In this document: in pieces, positions 1 to 8,059 of the stretch | Numbering within the stretch: the stretch's first letter is position 1 | How the letters are laid out: the number at the start of each line of letters is the position of its first letter | Assembly (NCBI GenBank): GCA_944393575.1 | Contig: CALYAP010000050.1 | Coordinates: 1 to 52,566, forward strand | Direction of reading: 5' to 3' | Length of the DNA stretch: 52,566 nucleotides | DNA from: an uncultured Clostridia bacterium | GTDB lineage: Bacteria > Bacillota > Dehalobacteriia > UBA4068 | Translations under genes and position numbers: made by a program | The notes under the pieces: generated by a model | Seen by the model: only the letters and a program-made list of their open reading frames with translations | What the model was told of the DNA's origin: nothing | Databases searched by the model: none

Positions 1-511
1 TACCACGTCCATTTATTTCTTCAATAGTACCTAAATCGTCATCATAAAAAAGTCCGCCGTATGCAGAAGCTATTAAGTCGGCTTCAGCATCAACTACAAC
101 TTCTTTGCTAGGCCATAATTCAGCTAAAACAGGCAATGAGTTGCGGGTTTCTTGGTATTCTTCAGGTAATTCACTGGGGTCATCGGTACGGCTAATGCCG
201 ATAATACGGTCTTCTAAGCCAAAGTACACCATCAGATCAGCTATGGTGCCACCACAGGTGATAACCCTTTCTGGTGCCTGTTCATACGTTTGGGTTACTT
301 CTCTGCCTAACCAGAAATAAGTATTCAGGGTAAGCGGATATTCTGTTGCTCCTGTAGTAGGTTGATAGTTTTCCCATTCTCCCAAGGTTGTTTGCTCGGT
401 ATTTTGCTGCTCTGTTTGGTCATTGTCTTGATTGGTGGCAGGCTCATTGGCGCAACCAAATAAAGCCAATGCCAAAAGGCAAACGAGCAATAAGGTAAAT
501 AGTTTTTTCAT
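1..511 (-). CDS. Fe-siderophore/cobalamin-type ABC transporter substrate-binding lipoprotein (partial)
   Basis: The ATG is at 511 on the minus strand and the 3' part runs off the left edge, leaving about 170 residues. The N-terminus is a lipoprotein signal: MKK, a hydrophobic run, then a lipobox ending LFGC with the lipidated Cys at residue 20. A Q/N/E/T-rich linker follows. The folded part contains APERVITCGGTIADLMVYFG and then GLEDRIIGIS, the usual start of periplasmic binding proteins of the BtuF/FhuD/FepB family (helical-backbone type III). These capture iron-siderophore, heme or cobalamin complexes outside the membrane for an ABC importer. No permease or ATPase gene is visible, but they could lie beyond the edge. 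The ligand cannot be told. A 25-bp palindrome lies about 100 bp upstream (611-635). Confidence 0.8.
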   Translation of the reverse strand, partial: MKKLFTLLLVCLLALALFGCANEPATNQDNDQTEQQNTEQTTLGEWENYQPTTGATEYPLTLNTYFWLGREVTQTYEQAPERVITCGGTIADLMVYFGLEDRIIGISRTDDPSELPEEYQETRNSLPVLAELWPSKEVVVDAEADLIASAYGGLFYDDDLGTIEEINGRG

Positions 512-610
512 AGTCGTTTCATCCCTTCCATAGTCCAGTTTCATCAGTCGCATAATTATACTTTAATAAAAATTATTTCTATTAAAGAATAATTGCTGAA
601 TAATTTTAGC

Positions 611-635
611 AATATTGATATCATTTATCAATATT
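611..635. repeat. Perfect 10-bp inverted repeat with 5-nt spacer (operator candidate)
   Basis: The arms AATATTGATA and TATCAATATT flank the spacer TCATT. The centre resembles a 7-1-7 Fur box (TGATAAT-N-ATTATCA), matching 11 of the 14 specified bases by my count. It sits between the divergent lipoprotein gene (start 511) and the repeat-nuclease gene (start 747), and just upstream of a TATAAT at 654-659. An operator for an iron or redox regulator is plausible because the left gene looks like an iron-complex binding protein. No direct evidence of function exists. Confidence 0.45.
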
Positions 636-746
636 TCTGGAGTGAACTTTTTATATAATGGAGTGCTAAAATTAATTGGACATTTAATACCGGTTAAAGC
701 TATAATAATTTTCGACATAAATATTGAACTTACAGGCTCTTAAACG

Positions 747-2021
747 ATGATTGGAAAGAAATTTGGACGACTAACAGTACTTGAACGTGCCAATACAAGA
801 AAAGGACGGGAGTATTGGTGGAAGTGTCTTTGTAATTGTGGCCGGCAAATAGAAGTGCGGGGTACTAGCCTTAGAAATGGTACTACGCGTAGCTGCGGCT
901 GTCTGAGAAATGAGCTAACCCGTCAAAGAAATAGCACCCGGGCTGATATTACTAATAATTTAATAGGGCAAAAGTACGGCCTTTTGACTGCTACTGAGTT
1001 ATTACCTGATAGGGTGAATGGCCAGAGGGTATGGCGCTGTCAATGTGAGTGTGGCAAACAAAAGGATGTCTTAGCACGTGACCTAAAAACAGGCCGGGTC
1101 AAAAGCTGTGGATGTTTGCCCACTAATACTCCCCGTGATCTTACGGGTAATAAGTATGGGCGACTGACGGTGATTAAGCTTTTACCAGAACGCAAATCTA
1201 ATGGCGGTGCTGTATGGTTATGCCGTTGCGATTGCGGCCAGGAGTTGCCGGTGGCAGCTGGTAATTTGCTTCGGGGTACCACTCGTAGTTGTGGCTGTTT
1301 ACGGCGAGATGATTTATCGGGGCAACAGTTTGGCCGTCTTACAGTGGAGTCACTTGGATCCAAATCTGGAGCAGGCAATGGAGCCTACTGGTTATGCCGT
1401 TGTGTTTGCGGTAATTATTGTGAAGTACAGGCTTCTAAGCTTAAGAGCGGCTATACGAAAAGCTGCGGTTGTATCAAGAGTGATAATATCAATAATCTAG
1501 TAGGTAAAAAATTTGGCAAACTGACAGTTGTACGTGATAGTGGTAAAAGAAGAGGAGGAAGCGGTGGAATCATTTGGGAATGTCTTTGCGAATGTGGGGA
1601 AAGTAAACTGATGCGCCAAGATGCCTTGGTGTCTGGAAGGACCATTAGCTGTGGCTGTATTCGATCAAAGGGAAATGAAAAGGTGGCTTCATTGCTCAAA
1701 AAGCATAAAATAAAATATATTAAAGAATATTCTCCTGATGATTTAAAGCGAAAAGGCAGTCTACGTTTTGATTTCGCTATACTAGACGAAAAACATTTTG
1801 TGGTGTATTTTATAGAATATGATGGTGAGCTGCATTACGGTTATAGCAATTCTGGTTGGGATAATGCGGAACGTTTTCAGCGGACTGTGGAAAGTGATAA
1901 TTTGAAAAACATCTATTGCCAACAGCATCACATTCCGCTTATCCGTATTCCTTATACTAGATATGATAAGCTTGATATCGCTGATCTGGTATTAGCGACG
2001 AGTGAATTCATCATCTCTTAG
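747..2021 (+). CDS. Five-repeat zinc-binding protein with C-terminal Vsr/EDxHD-like nuclease domain
   Basis: The protein has 424 residues. Five tandem copies of a roughly 53-residue module occupy about residues 1-53, 72-124, 132-185, 190-243 and 251-305. Each reads G-K-x-[FY]-G-x-L-T-V, then W-x-C-x-C-x-CG, then L-x-x-G-x-x-x-SCGC. The Cys spacing suggests a zinc-binding module. Residues 308-424 form a different domain with RFDFAI (D342), FIEYDGELHY (E357, D359, H363), an R...D..K..YC helix and a PLIRIPY strand. That is the pattern of phage-type Vsr-like (EDxHD) nucleases. Such modules occur in phage and homing-endonuclease proteins, so a DNA-targeting, free-standing homing-type nuclease is my inference. 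The ribosome binding site is weak. The gene stands alone between a divergent transporter gene and trmO. Confidence 0.72.
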   Translation: MIGKKFGRLTVLERANTRKGREYWWKCLCNCGRQIEVRGTSLRNGTTRSCGCLRNELTRQRNSTRADITNNLIGQKYGLLTATELLPDRVNGQRVWRCQCECGKQKDVLARDLKTGRVKSCGCLPTNTPRDLTGNKYGRLTVIKLLPERKSNGGAVWLCRCDCGQELPVAAGNLLRGTTRSCGCLRRDDLSGQQFGRLTVESLGSKSGAGNGAYWLCRCVCGNYCEVQASKLKSGYTKSCGCIKSDNINNLVGKKFGKLTVVRDSGKRRGGSGGIIWECLCECGESKLMRQDALVSGRTISCGCIRSKGNEKVASLLKKHKIKYIKEYSPDDLKRKGSLRFDFAILDEKHFVVYFIEYDGELHYGYSNSGWDNAERFQRTVESDNLKNIYCQQHHIPLIRIPYTRYDKLDIADLVLATSEFIIS

Positions 2022-2070
2022 CAAGTGGCTTCTACTTTATTGGGTAGCCTGATAGTAATGAGGTGTTTTT

Positions 2071-2769
2071 ATGTCAGATATTATGCAATTAGATATCATT
2101 GCCCGCATTCATAATGATTTTCCCACTAAATTTGGTATACCAAGACAAAGTGGGTTGGTAAATGATCTCCAATCGATTATTGTTTTTGAGCCTAAATACC
2201 GTAATCCCGACGCTGTACGTGGCTTAGAGCAGTTTTCCCATATTTGGTTATTGTGGCAGTTTTCCGAGGCCATTCGTGAACAGTGGTCGCCGACTGTCCG
2301 TCCTCCGCGGCTTGGCGGTAATACCAGAATGGGTGTGTTTGCGACCCGTTCCCCCTTTAGGCCTAATCCAATCGGCCTATCTTCGGTGCAGTTAAGTAGG
2401 ATTGAGATCAATGATGAATTAGGTCCAATCTTATATGTGACTGGAGCGGATTTAATGGATGGTAGCCCGATTTATGATATTAAGCCCTATCTACCTTATA
2501 CTGATGCCCATCCTGATGCTAGCGGCGGATTCGCCTGCTCTAATAAAGATGGTTTTTTACAGGTATATTTCCCTGAGCAATGGTTAGCTATGGTACCGGA
2601 AAAGAAGCGGGATAGTCTGATTGGGGTTTTGGCGCAGGATCCCAGACCAGCATATCAAAATTCACCGGAGCGAATCTATGGGTTCCAATTTGCCGGGTTA
2701 GAGATTAGGTTTATGGTTCAAGATAGCCTATTAACGGTCTGCGAAGTTAAAGAGGTAGTTGGTAACTAA
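2071..2769 (+). CDS. trmO: tRNA (N6-threonylcarbamoyladenosine37-N6)-methyltransferase TrmO
   Basis: This 232-residue protein belongs to the UPF0066/YaeB (TsaA) family. TrmO uses S-adenosylmethionine to methylate t6A37 to m6t6A in ANN-decoding tRNAs such as tRNA-Thr(GGU). The diagnostic stretch is GGNTRMGVFATRSPFRPNPI (about residues 87-106), followed by GLSSVQLSRIE, a DLMDGSPIYDIKPYLPY segment and a C-terminal FQFAGLEIRF-like region. The length fits the family. The start is chosen because GAGGTG lies about 9 nt upstream of ATG 2071. The gene is monocistronic: a hairpin follows its stop, and the next gene has its own promoter. Confidence 0.92.
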   Translation: MSDIMQLDIIARIHNDFPTKFGIPRQSGLVNDLQSIIVFEPKYRNPDAVRGLEQFSHIWLLWQFSEAIREQWSPTVRPPRLGGNTRMGVFATRSPFRPNPIGLSSVQLSRIEINDELGPILYVTGADLMDGSPIYDIKPYLPYTDAHPDASGGFACSNKDGFLQVYFPEQWLAMVPEKKRDSLIGVLAQDPRPAYQNSPERIYGFQFAGLEIRFMVQDSLLTVCEVKEVVGN

Positions 2770-2812
2770 AATAGCTTAATGCTGCACAAGCATTTAGATG
2801 CTATTTATTTTA
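2770..2812 (+). terminator. Likely intrinsic terminator of trmO
   Basis: A nested hairpin starts right at the stop codon. AATAGC pairs with GCTATT, and an inner AATGC pairs with GCATT around TGCACAA. A T-rich stretch (TATTTTAT) follows. The stem is weak and AT-rich, so efficiency is uncertain. Confidence 0.5.
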
Positions 2813-2859
2813 TCTTTGTTGTTTATAATACCTAAGTTTGGACATTTGCTATTTTATGC

Positions 2860-2888
2860 TTGCTTTTTGTCAAGCTATATGTTAGAAT
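2860..2888 (+). promoter_or_regulatory. Promoter of the rimP-nusA-infB operon
   Basis: A -35 element TTGCTT (2860-2865), a 17-nt spacer and a -10 element TAGAAT (2883-2888), preceded by TG one base away (extended -10). The predicted start is near 2895, upstream of the leader hairpin at 2915-2943 and rimP at 2966. Confidence 0.6.
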
Positions 2889-2914
2889 ACACACGTTAGA
2901 GATGTTGCTGTAGG

Positions 2915-2943
2915 AAAGTGGGGAATTATTCCCACTTTTTCTT
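2915..2943 (+). terminator. Leader hairpin / attenuator-like terminator before rimP
   Basis: AAAGTGGG (2915-2922) pairs perfectly with CCCACTTT (2931-2938) around an 8-nt loop, and TTCTTTT follows. The hairpin has the form of an intrinsic terminator, yet it lies between the promoter and the first gene. It is therefore likely a regulated or leaky attenuator in the 5' leader. Feedback by NusA, encoded two genes in, is an attractive inference but is not shown. Confidence 0.6.
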
Positions 2944-2965
2944 TTGAATTAGGAAGGCTAAGCAG

Positions 2966-3451
2966 ATGGTCAAAAAGAAAGGCTTTGTTGTTGATTATAA
3001 TAAAATAGAACAGGAAATTTGGTCATTGGTAGAGCCGCTTTGTTCTGAGTGTGGCGCCGAGCTTATTGATGTTGAATATGTGTACGAAGCTGGTAGTTGG
3101 TATTTGCGGATTTTTATCGACCGTGAACCGCCGGTAGATCATGCTTTGTGTGAATTAGTTAGCGGTAAAATCAGTGATGCGCTGGATATCGCTGACCCAA
3201 TTAGCCAAAGCTATTATCTGGAAGTAAGCTCTCCGGGATTAGAACGCCCGCTTAAACGGCAGCAGGATTTTCAGCGCTATGCAGGAAGAGAGATTTTAGT
3301 CAAGCTGTATGCACCATATGATGGGGTAAAAGAATTTCAAGGTATACTCAAAACTATGGAGGATGCTGTTCTAACTATAGAGACTGTTGACGGTGAACGT
3401 TCTTTTCCTCTAGATAGCATCGCAAAGGCCCATTTGGTAGCAGATATATAA
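2966..3451 (+). CDS. rimP: Ribosome maturation factor RimP
   Basis: This 161-residue protein has the two-domain RimP fold. The N-terminal alpha/beta domain (about 12-85) contains EQEIWSLVEPLCSECGAELI and the LEVSSPGLERPL motif that closes it. The C-terminal SH3-like barrel (about 86-158) contains GREILVKLYAPYDGVKEF. RimP binds the 30S subunit and helps assemble its head, acting with uS12. It is the first gene of the operon, followed 40 nt later by nusA. The start ATG 2966 is preceded by AGGAAGG. Confidence 0.95.
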   Translation: MVKKKGFVVDYNKIEQEIWSLVEPLCSECGAELIDVEYVYEAGSWYLRIFIDREPPVDHALCELVSGKISDALDIADPISQSYYLEVSSPGLERPLKRQQDFQRYAGREILVKLYAPYDGVKEFQGILKTMEDAVLTIETVDGERSFPLDSIAKAHLVADI

Positions 3452-3491
3452 AACCGATTTTAAGAATTAATCTATGTAAGGAGTAAAAAAG

Positions 3492-4619
3492 ATGAATATC
3501 GAATTCATTGAAGCCCTCAAAGATTTAGAAAAAGAACGCGGTATTGAAATGGATGTGCTTATAGAAGCCATTGAAGCTGCTTTAATCTCTGCCTATAAGA
3601 AAAATTACGGTTCTTCACAAAATGTGCGAGTGGAAATCAACCGTAATAATGGCGAGATCCATGTCATTTATCGTAAAGATGTAGTTGAAGAGGTTGATGA
3701 CCCAGCCACCCAAATGTCTTTAGAAGAAGCGCAAAGATATGATCCTGAATTTGAGGTTGGCGATGTTTTCGAATCTGAGGTAACTCCACGTAGTTTTGGC
3801 CGTATCGCTGCTCAGACTGCTAAGCATGTTGTCATGCAGCGAATCAGAGAAGCCGAACGCAATATGGTATATGACCAGTATGCTACACGCAAAGATGATA
3901 TTATCACTGCAACTGTGTTGCGTGTTGAAGGCAAAAATGTCTTTATGGATCTAGGCAAAACAGAAGCTCTTCTGGCACCTTCTGAACAAATTCCTCGAGA
4001 GAATTACCGTCAGGGTAATAGGTTGAAAGTTTATATTTTAGAAGTCCGCAAAACCAATAAAGGACCGCAGATTTTAGTCTCCAGGACCCATCCAGGACTA
4101 TTGAAACGTCTTTTTGAACGTGAAGTACCAGAAATCCAAGATGGCACAGTAGAGATCAAGTCAGTGGTGCGTGAGCCTGGTTGGCGTTCTAAAATTGCTG
4201 TTTATAGCAAAAATACTAGTGTAGACCCGGTAGGAGCCTGTGTTGGTTCTAAAGGTATGCGTGTTCAGGCTATAGTGAATGAACTAGACGGCGAGAAAAT
4301 TGAGATCATCCGCTGGGATGAAGACCCGGCTATTTATGTCAGCAATGCTCTTTCGCCGGCTAAGGCTATTTCTGTAGAAATAGATGAAGAAGAGAAGTTC
4401 ACCAGGGTAGTTGTCCCTGATTTCCAGCTTTCTTTAGCTATTGGCAAGGAAGGACAGAATGCCCGTTTGGCTGCCCGTTTGACTGGCTGGAAGATTGATA
4501 TCAAGAGCGAAAGTCAAATGGCTGAATTAGAAGAAAACGGTGAAGCCATTGAACAAGATGAGTATTGGGATGAATCTGGTGCACAGGAGTACCAGGACGC
4601 CTTGGAGACGGAGAAATAA
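3492..4619 (+). CDS. nusA: Transcription termination/antitermination protein NusA
   Basis: NusA has 375 residues, the short Bacillota form without the acidic repeats of Proteobacteria. An N-terminal RNA-polymerase-binding domain (about 1-125) starts [18 protein letters not shown]. The S1 domain (about 130-200) includes [20 protein letters not shown]. Two KH domains (about 200-345) carry [18 protein letters not shown] and [19 protein letters not shown] short acidic tail ends the protein. NusA modulates pausing, hairpin termination and antitermination. AAGGAG lies before ATG 3492. The ylxR gene follows after 3 nt. Confidence 0.96.
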
Positions 4620-4622
4620 TCA

Positions 4623-4907
4623 GTGATTAGAAAACAGCCTCAACGCATATGTGCAGTTTGCCGTGAAAGTAAGCTTAAAAGAGAGCTTATCAGACTAGTA
4701 CGTGATCCAGAGGGGAATATTAGTTTGGATCCTACTGGTAAAAAATCAGGCCGGGGTGCGTATTTGTGTAATAATCCTGAATGTCTTAAAAAGGCGCGCA
4801 AGCAACGTTGTTTGGAACGTTCATTGAAGACGCCAATTCCTGAGGAACTCTGGGAGCAAATTGCAGTAGCAATAGAGGGTTTGCCTAAAAATGAATCAGA
4901 TGAGTGA
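4623..4907 (+). CDS. ylxR: YlxR/RnpM family RNA-binding protein (DUF448)
   Basis: This small basic protein has 94 residues and starts at GTG 4623, three bases after nusA. It carries RICAVCRE (Cys10 and Cys13), KRELIRLVR and the signature GRGAYLC (about residues 43-49). The family binds RNA, and Bacillus subtilis YlxR (RnpM) has been reported to modulate RNase P. The gene is always found between nusA and infB, as here. It overlaps the start of ylxQ by 17 nt, which implies translational coupling. Confidence 0.93.
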   Translation: MIRKQPQRICAVCRESKLKRELIRLVRDPEGNISLDPTGKKSGRGAYLCNNPECLKKARKQRCLERSLKTPIPEELWEQIAVAIEGLPKNESDE

Positions 4908-5223
4908 ACAAGAAAAGAAAAAAATTTCTGGTTATTTGGGTATTGCTCAGCGCGCAGGAAAAATAGTTGCTGGTAATAATATGGTCAAAGAGGCTTTAGA
5001 AAAAAAACGCGTTAAATTATTGGTATTAGCGGATAATGCCTCGAATGAAGTAAAGTCTAGTTTGAGTTTGTTGGCCCAAAAAAATGGGATTTGTGTTATT
5101 AGTTGGCCAACTAAGGATGAACTAGGATTGATCGTTGGAAAAAGCCGTCGAGGCGCCTTAGGTGTGCTGGATGATGGTTTTGCGCAAGCAATAAAAAAGG
5201 TTAAAGGCATTATCAATGCTTAG
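4891..5223 (+). CDS. ylxQ: L7Ae/L30e-like RNA-binding protein YlxQ
   Basis: The protein has 110 residues and the L7Ae/eL8 fold. LGIAQRAGKIVAGNNMVKEA gives the conserved alanine/glycine entry helix, VKLLVLADNASNEVK the central strand and helix, and SRRGALGVLDDGFAQAI the C-terminal helix. It probably binds kink-turn RNA. ATG 4891 overlaps the ylxR end. A second in-frame ATG at 4900 is also possible. The position between ylxR and infB is typical of Bacillota. Confidence 0.9.
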   Translation: MNQMSEQEKKKISGYLGIAQRAGKIVAGNNMVKEALEKKRVKLLVLADNASNEVKSSLSLLAQKNGICVISWPTKDELGLIVGKSRRGALGVLDDGFAQAIKKVKGIINA

Positions 5224-5254
5224 ATTTTATCCGATGTGATAAGGGGTGGTAGGT

Positions 5255-8059
5255 TTGGCAAAAATAAAAATTTACGAATTGGCAAAAGAGCTCTCTATAG
5301 AGAGCAAGGAAATTATTCGCCGGCTCAATAAAATGGGTATCGAAGTAAAGACCCATATGAGCTCGATTAGTGAAAAAGATGCCAATGCGGTGAGAAATAG
5401 TTTCGCCAAAGAAGGAAAGGCTAAGCCTGTAGCGGATGCGGAAGGCTTTGTTCCGCGTGTTAAGCGTATCCCTAAAGCTGTAATTGAAAAGGAACAGATT
5501 GCGGCAAAACCAGAAGAAGAGAAGCCTGATACAGATGCTCCAGCTAATGTCAATACTGGAGCACAACAGCAATCATCAGAGCAGGCTGACTCTTCTCAGC
5601 CCTTATCAGTAGAAACCAAACTGAATGATGATGTAAAAGCCGAACCCGATCTTCAAGACCAGAAGATAGCGGCAGATAAGGATATAGCTAAACCGAAAGA
5701 AACTCCTGCGGCGCAGGAAAAGACAACCAAAGAGCAGGATGCGCCTTCTGAACCTGTAGATAGGGAAGAAAACAAATCTGAGCCTGTAGTTGAGAAGCAA
5801 GAACAAAAAGAAACCAAACATGATGCTAAACCTGCACCAGCTGCTACAGAAAAGTCACAGTCATCATCAGATGTCACATTAAAAACTAAACCAGTCGATG
5901 AGACCGATAAACAGACTCAGCCATCAAAACCTAAGGAGAATAAACCCCAATCTAATAATAGAGCTCAGGAAAATTCTCAGCAGGGTAATAGACAGAACCA
6001 GTCAAGGCCACATGAAGACAAAGCAAAATCAGAGCGTTCACAAAATGAGCGTTCTCGTAACAACAGAACTCAGGGAGATAAATTCCATGGCAACCGGCCA
6101 ACATTAGATGAGCCATATATGCCAGAAAATAAGCCGAATAATCATAAGGCAAACCGGAAGAAAGTATTTGTGAAGGATAATGCTTTTGACCGTAGAGGCG
6201 ATGATGAATTTAACAACGGCCGCGGTTATGGCAAAGGATTTAAAGGAAAAGGCCGCAAAGGTGGTAAGAATAATAAGAAGGAAACAAAAGTAGTTATGCC
6301 TCCTGTAACGCCAAAAAAAATTACTATCGGCGAAACCGTTGTTTTAGGCGAATTAGCCAAAACTATGGGTAAGACTGCTGGTGAAATTATCAAAAAGCTC
6401 TTTGAAATGGGGATTATGGCCACTATTAATCAGGAGCTGGATTCAGAAACCGCTATTTTGGTAGCGGACGAATTTGGTGTAACCGTAGAAGTAAAGGCTG
6501 ACCGGGCCGCAGAAATCTTAGAAGATATTGCCGATGATGAGGGAGAAATGAAAGAAAGACCCCCAGTGGTCACTATCATGGGCCATGTCGACCATGGTAA
6601 AACTTCGCTCCTTGATGCGATTCGCCATACCAATGTGGTCTCCGGTGAGGCTGGTGGCATCACTCAGCATATTGGTGCCTATCAGGTAGAAATCAAGGGT
6701 AAGAAAATCACCTTCCTGGATACCCCTGGCCATGAGGCATTTACTGCCATGCGTGCCCGTGGGGCTAACATGACGGATATCGCGATTATTGTAGTTGCTG
6801 CTGATGATGGGGTTATGCCTCAGACTATTGAAGCGATTAACCACTCCAAGGCAGCTGGAGTGCCGATAATTATTGCTATTAATAAAATAGATAAGCCAGG
6901 TGCTGATCCCAACAGGGTCAAACAGGAGTTAACGGAATATGGTTTGGTGCCTGAAGAATGGGGCGGCGATACCATTATGGTTGAAGTTTCTGCTAAGGCG
7001 GGCATCAACCTTGAAGGTTTGCTGGAAATGATCTTATTGGTGGCTGAGGTGGAAGAACTCAAAGCCAATTATGACCGGCAAGCGAGGGGTGCTGTCATTG
7101 AGGCCAAGCTGGATAAAAACCGTGGCTCTGTGGCAACCTTATTGGTACAAAAAGGGACCCTTCATGCTGGTGATAACATTTTGGCTGGTGCTGTCTTTGG
7201 TAAAGTTAGAGCCATGCATGATGATAAAGGGCGTAAGGTTAAATCCGCTGGCCCATCCATGCCCGTTGAGGTATTAGGATTTTCTGATGTGCCTACTGCT
7301 GGGGAAATATTTGTTGTTGTTAAAGATGAGAAAGACGCCCGTTTGGTTGCAGCTAAACAAAGTGCCAAGAAACGTGAGGAAGAGCTGCATCGTGCTACCA
7401 AAATTAGTCTGGATAATCTTTTCCAACAAATCGCTGAGGGCGAGATCAAAGAGCTTAACCTGGTAGTCAAGGCCGATGTTCAGGGATCAGTAGAGGCATT
7501 GATCCAGAGTCTGGTCAAGTTGAATACCGATGAAGTTAAAGTTAATGTCATTCATTCTGGTGTTGGCGCCGTCTCTGAGAGCGATGTAATGCTGGCATCA
7601 GCTTCCAATGCGATTATTTTGGGCTTCAATATTATTGCACCTCCTGCTGCCCGTGCCGCAGCTGAGGCCGCTGATGTGGATATTAGGCTCTACCGTGTTA
7701 TTTATGATGCTCTCGAAGATATTAAGCTGGCTATGAGCGGCTTACTGGCACCAGAATACAAAGAAAATATCATTGGCCATGTGGAAATTAGGCAAGTTAT
7801 CAGAGTGCCTAAAGTAGGTGTTGTTGCTGGCTCTTATGTGACCAATGGTAAAGTAGTCCGTAATGCTTTAGTGCGTGTTATTCGTGATAATGCCGTAATC
7901 GCTGATGATAAGATTATCAGCCTGAGGCGGTTCAAAGATGATGCTAAAGAGGTTTTAGAAGGCTTTGAATGCGGCATTGGCTTAGAAAACTTCCATGATA
8001 TTAAAGAAGGCGATCAATTAGAGGTTTATGAGATGGAAGAAATCGCCAGACAACTCTAA
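5255..8059 (+). CDS. infB: Translation initiation factor IF-2
   Basis: The protein has about 934 residues from a TTG start at 5255, chosen because AAGGGG lies 8 nt upstream and the protein then begins with the usual [12 protein letters not shown]. An in-frame GTG at 5246 overlaps the ribosome binding site. The N-terminal IF2N domain is followed by a long low-complexity K/E/P/Q/N-rich linker (about residues 80-330), then a second IF2N region. The GTPase carries G1 GHVDHGKT (443-450), [18 protein letters not shown] and NKID. Domains II to IV end the protein, the last binding fMet-tRNA. IF-2 brings initiator tRNA to the 30S subunit and drives subunit joining. The operon continues with rbfA after 35 nt. 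Confidence 0.97.

Follow-up and report, generated by a model that had tools for sequence, protein, structure and literature searches.

What is a protein with five cysteine-rich modules and a nuclease-like domain doing alone between core genes of a bacterial chromosome? The question is raised by an intact open reading frame near the start of the window, that is, the whole stretch of 52,566 nucleotides analysed here, a contig of an uncultured Clostridia bacterium (class Dehalobacteriia). The reading frame encodes 424 amino acids from an ATG start codon. An earlier note on the sequence described five Cys-rich copies in a row, and two profiles recovered them: one built from the copies themselves, and an independent profile searched across the whole genome. 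The features are as follows, with residues counted from the ATG of 747-2021.

677..706, + strand: candidate sigma-70-type promoter ahead of the gene, TGGACA-18-TATAAT, 11/12 (weak)
747..2021, + strand: whole gene, probable 424-residue free-standing homing-type endonuclease (open reading frame; matches to phrog_374, 8.8e-89, phrog_559, 1.1e-31, and phrog_9084, 4.2e-23)
747..908, + strand: CxCxCG...SCGC module 1, residues 1-54 (two profiles)
957..1118, + strand: module 2, residues 71-124 (two profiles)
1137..1304, + strand: module 3, residues 131-186 (two profiles)
1311..1478, + strand: module 4, residues 189-244 (two profiles)
1494..1664, + strand: module 5, residues 250-306 (two profiles; Cys281, 283, 302 and 304 invariant in full-length relatives)
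1668..2015, + strand: predicted Vsr/EDxHD-like nuclease domain, residues ~308-423 (Asp342, Glu357, Asp359, His363, Asp384 and Lys387; alignment of relatives and structure model)

The promoter match is weak because the region ahead of the gene holds no more promoter-type sites than shuffled sequence.

The N-terminal part of the protein consists of five tandem CxCxCG...SCGC modules (hereafter CxCG) of ~55 residues, which precede the C-terminal nuclease domain. Between pairs of module copies, protein identity is 39-50% (z of 10.7-15.0 against shuffles) and DNA identity no more than 52-61%, so the modules are homologous and the array is old rather than recently duplicated. The Cys residues of C-x-C-x-C-G and S-C-G-C are nearly invariant among the 258 modules of all fetched loci. 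The four Cys residues of module 5 that never vary among full-length relatives suggest a four-Cys zinc site. The most variable parts of the 258 modules are the loop before a conserved Trp and the stretch from CxCxCG to a conserved Leu, and DNA contacts could lie in either. A DNA-reading role for the array as a whole is a reasonable inference. In the full-length model each module is predicted confidently by itself, and a pTM of 0.39 means that their relative arrangement is not fixed by the model. An NCBIfam sactipeptide match to the protein (0.00099) reaches 19 bits where the cut-off is 60, and is attributed to chance from Cys-richness.

The nuclease domain contains RFDFAI, IEYDGELHY and PLIRIPY, as the earlier note had it. 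The only Pfam match to the domain, DUF2726, is weak and below its cut-off, and no credible sequence-profile link to solved structures was obtained. The Vsr/EDxHD-like fold proposed for this domain was checked by structure prediction, as the note had advised. Module 5 and the nuclease were modelled together, using 87 sequences from the window and the loci, with a mean pLDDT of 94.9. Foldseek with the nuclease model returned no match at E<=0.001. The resemblance to known nucleases emerged only in a second look with VIA-align, Foldseek alone being weak: among 999 chains the Vsr-DNA complex 1cw0 ranked first (Z 10.4, 110 residues, 2.9 A) and the catalytic domain of I-Bth0305I, 3r3p, ranked second (Z 9.9, 90 residues, 2.9 A). 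Below them came free Vsr (1vsr, Z 9.5), then two mitoribosomal proteins, FASTKD4 and TnsA. I-Bth0305I is encoded in a recA intron of a Bacillus phage. The modelled C-terminal domain is thus one with a predicted Vsr-like nuclease fold.

Conservation among 93 relatives outlines the putative active site. Asp342, Glu357, Gly360, His363 and Lys387 are invariant, and Asp359, Asp384 (kept in 92 of the 93), Arg400 and Tyr403 are nearly so. Of the Glu/Asp/His/Asp active-site set, the window protein keeps Asp342, His363 and Asp384. The Glu of an SxGE motif in helix 1, which we take to be the Glu that 'EDxHD' denotes, is present in 83 of the 93 relatives and is replaced by Asn310 in the window protein. 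Nine other rows of the alignment also have no Glu at this position, one of them through missing sequence there, and they include the phage homologues L127, L165 and L158. With Asn310 in place of the usual Glu, the activity of the window enzyme could be reduced.

The chromosomal setting is that of a bacterial core region. On one side the gene is flanked by a btuF-like transporter gene on the minus strand, and on the other by trmO, rimP, nusA and infB. Farther on lie truB-ribF, mutS, mutL, miaA, enolase, a Clp ATPase and a UvrD-type helicase. Another contig, C8, overlaps the start of the window by 127 bases and extends the btuF-like side. Since the neighbours are core genes, the locus is chromosomal, and a prophage at this position is ruled out. 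Neither a phage gene nor a copy of a target gene was seen beside the window gene. The earlier note had seen no intron around the gene, and indeed positions 1-8000 of the window contain no Rfam intron even at E<=5. The trmO and btuF-like neighbours are separate genes, which does not fit an intron-encoded endonuclease.

The distribution of the gene is sporadic. The nuclease domain is present in one of 43 genomes of the class, and the independent profile found no further copy of the gene in the whole genome. A solitary intergenic gene of sporadic occurrence is what a free-standing homing endonuclease gene should be. The gene order of the window is found in none of the compared relatives: the genus mates have no trmO, one of them has a purA-like gene divergent from rimP, and other family members have trmO with neighbours different from those in the window. 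As no compared relative shares the neighbourhood, the comparison shows no empty site for the window locus. On contig C8 (L082, 703-1737, G000:C8) a radical-SAM-like protein is encoded between btuF-like and btuC-like genes, possibly as an accessory variant of a metal-cofactor uptake operon. It is absent from the 19 other family genomes searched. Since this neighbour on the other side, like the window gene, occurs within the family only here, the spot is generally variable.

The protein had been called an orphan, a description that did not survive the searches, as the nuclease domain alone has matches in 356 phage records. Its attribution to a homing-type phage family gained support from several sides. 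In PHROGs, phrog_374 matches over five stretches of the window protein and phrog_559 over residues 14-410; further matches are phrog_9084, labelled 'homing endonuclease', and phrog_7140, 'intron encoded nuclease'. Staphylococcus phage PALS_1 has a large terminase gene annotated in pieces, with two such nuclease reading frames between them. In the phage contig L099, a copy with three CxCG modules starts ~135 bases downstream of a group I intron (76 bits against an Rfam cut-off of 50). Among the 68 loci scanned, L099 included, no other intron reached the Rfam cut-off, so most loci are free-standing or have introns below threshold.

Dozens of phage contigs and phage-like regions of genomes encode the nuclease fused to one to five CxCG modules. 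Across the IMG/VR and genome loci, the nuclease is preceded by one to five CxCG modules, by one to six zinc-ribbon-like modules of a second kind, or by neither detectably. The five-copy array singled out earlier is long and is not unique, as arrays of the same length occur in the phage loci L148 and L279. In a nuclease tree of few columns and rough support, the window domain falls within a supported clade (99/95) with 44 rows. CxCG-type proteins, mostly from phage contigs, make up 39 of these rows, and the row most similar to the window domain is 50% identical. Three relatives from the genome collection were checked, and all adjoin phage genes. Nuclease copies in four loci (L185, L133, L151 and L168) lie amid dense tRNA gene clusters. 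Five other genomes of the order contain CxCG modules, in other proteins. In two order-level relatives (L002 and L003, from G031 and G026), three CxCG modules precede an apparent AP2-like domain, and the nuclease was not seen.

Occupied and empty sites can be compared directly in rumen phages. A DHH-like gene and dnaE, both named by sequence reading, form a junction that was compared among 23 contigs carrying the DHH-like gene. Copies in L148 (five modules) and L127 (four) lie directly behind this same gene. The DHH-dnaE junction is occupied in L257/L258 and L279 (five modules), L127 (four) and L261 (two), while L265 has a three-module copy one reading frame further on. In L263 the junction is empty, and the DHH stop codon stands directly before the TTGACA...TATAAT promoter of dnaE; in L279 it is the nuclease stop codon that abuts the same promoter. 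The last ~35 residues of the junction enzymes are nearly identical, and their arrays differ. Recurrent homing in which arrays are exchanged would leave such a pattern, whatever the order of events. In L148, an apparent GIY-YIG-type reading frame (4262-4987, by reading) lies just before dnaE.

The window protein has counterparts among described endonucleases. Phage intron-encoded homing endonucleases reported in 2025 combine three to five CapR-like domains of ~60 residues with an EDxHD/Vsr-like nuclease of ~100 residues, and this CapR/DUF4379/DUF723-like class is large, with thousands of members (PMC12350094). The window protein has the same layout of three to five small repeats followed by an EDxHD/Vsr-like domain. 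The modules of the published class are distantly related to CapR/DUF4379/DUF723, whereas the window modules are of the CxCxCG...SCGC type, give no such Pfam match at E<=1 and are not in an intron. The second zinc-ribbon-like layout found among the IMG/VR and genome loci, with one to six modules, resembles the published class. The phrog_559 proteins, likewise described in 2025, are VSR-type and encoded in group I introns of Bastillevirinae terminase genes (PMC11878797). They share the Vsr-type nuclease, the homing context and a sequence match with the window protein, which differs in being encoded without an intron. For phrog_559 the PHROG label 'HNH endonuclease' is misleading, given that its intron-encoded members are Vsr-type (PMC11878797).

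In I-Bth0305I a C-terminal nuclease is tethered to a multi-part DNA-binding region (PMC3943268). The likeness to the window protein lies in the nuclease fold and in the multi-part region ahead of it. I-Bth0305I is intron-encoded, whereas the window copy is free-standing with Asn for the helix-1 Glu, and the two are too distant for detection by sequence profile. Phage 'HNH endonuclease' or 'AP2 domain' proteins of the phrog_374 type (L002, L003, L006 and L007) have the same CxCG module as the window protein; by sequence reading they carry HNH or AP2 domains, not the Vsr-like nuclease. A modular region ahead of the nuclease, as in EDxHD/Vsr-like homing endonucleases, is thus present in the window protein as five CxCG modules, which presumably bind DNA.

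Taken together, the window gene probably encodes a free-standing EDxHD/Vsr-like homing endonuclease, and the best reading is a phage-type enzyme stranded on the chromosome. Its direct support consists of the domain make-up, the match in fold, membership of a phage family, the empty and occupied sites of close phage relatives and the sporadic occurrence. Against it stand Asn310, a gene order that no compared relative shares, so that no empty site is seen for this copy, and the lack of any adjacent phage gene, intron or target gene copy. The closest competitor, possible though clearly the less probable, is that such an enzyme arrived by homing or phage transfer and has since lost its activity, leaving a relic. 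It keeps this standing because of Asn310, and a single copy, solitary in a core chromosome, suits it as well; however, all 424 codons are open, the Cys pairs of all five modules and the other active-site residues are intact, and other phage members vary at position 310 too.

An intact gene in the core chromosome, away from phage genes and with a promoter-like match upstream, might also be a domesticated host protein, such as a regulator or an anti-phage nuclease whose array would serve to recognise incoming foreign DNA. This is unlikely, since the search of the class found the gene in none of its 42 other genomes examined. The suggestion of a host-adapted defence protein found no backing either: the protein matched no PADLOC family at E<=1, no defence genes were present among the neighbours examined, and the genome has no C5-cytosine methylase (PF00145). 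The last result also weighs against a Vsr-type endonuclease in the repair of T:G mismatches at methylated sites, since the genome is 96.9% complete and the PF00145 search was positive in 10 of 14 control genomes. Vsr is the top structural match and mutS-mutL lie on the same contig, yet both the tandem modules and the relatives point to phage nucleases, which makes a repair function highly improbable.

If the window gene is a free-standing homing endonuclease, the five modules would bind zinc and an extended DNA site, and thereby position the C-terminal Vsr-like nuclease. This domain would cut a DNA copy without the gene, and repair from a gene-bearing copy would copy the gene in. Most likely the copy came from a phage and now stands alone between the btuF-like gene and trmO. 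A further proposal is that the CxCG array serves as a modular reader, shuffled in number and order (one to five) before a conserved Vsr-like cutter, so that homing is retargeted, and that the window copy was retargeted to a bacterial chromosomal site; this we regard as doubtful.

The window gene is a copy of a common selfish phage gene type and no new kind of system. It shows that CapR-like domains are not the only repeats in the large EDxHD/Vsr-like homing class described in 2025: CxCxCG...SCGC modules, up to five in a row, form a second kind. It also shows that a homing-type gene of this sort can sit alone in a bacterial core chromosome. At the phage DHH-dnaE junction there are natural variants with two, four and five modules that are nearly identical at the C-terminus, and these would allow a direct test of modular DNA reading.
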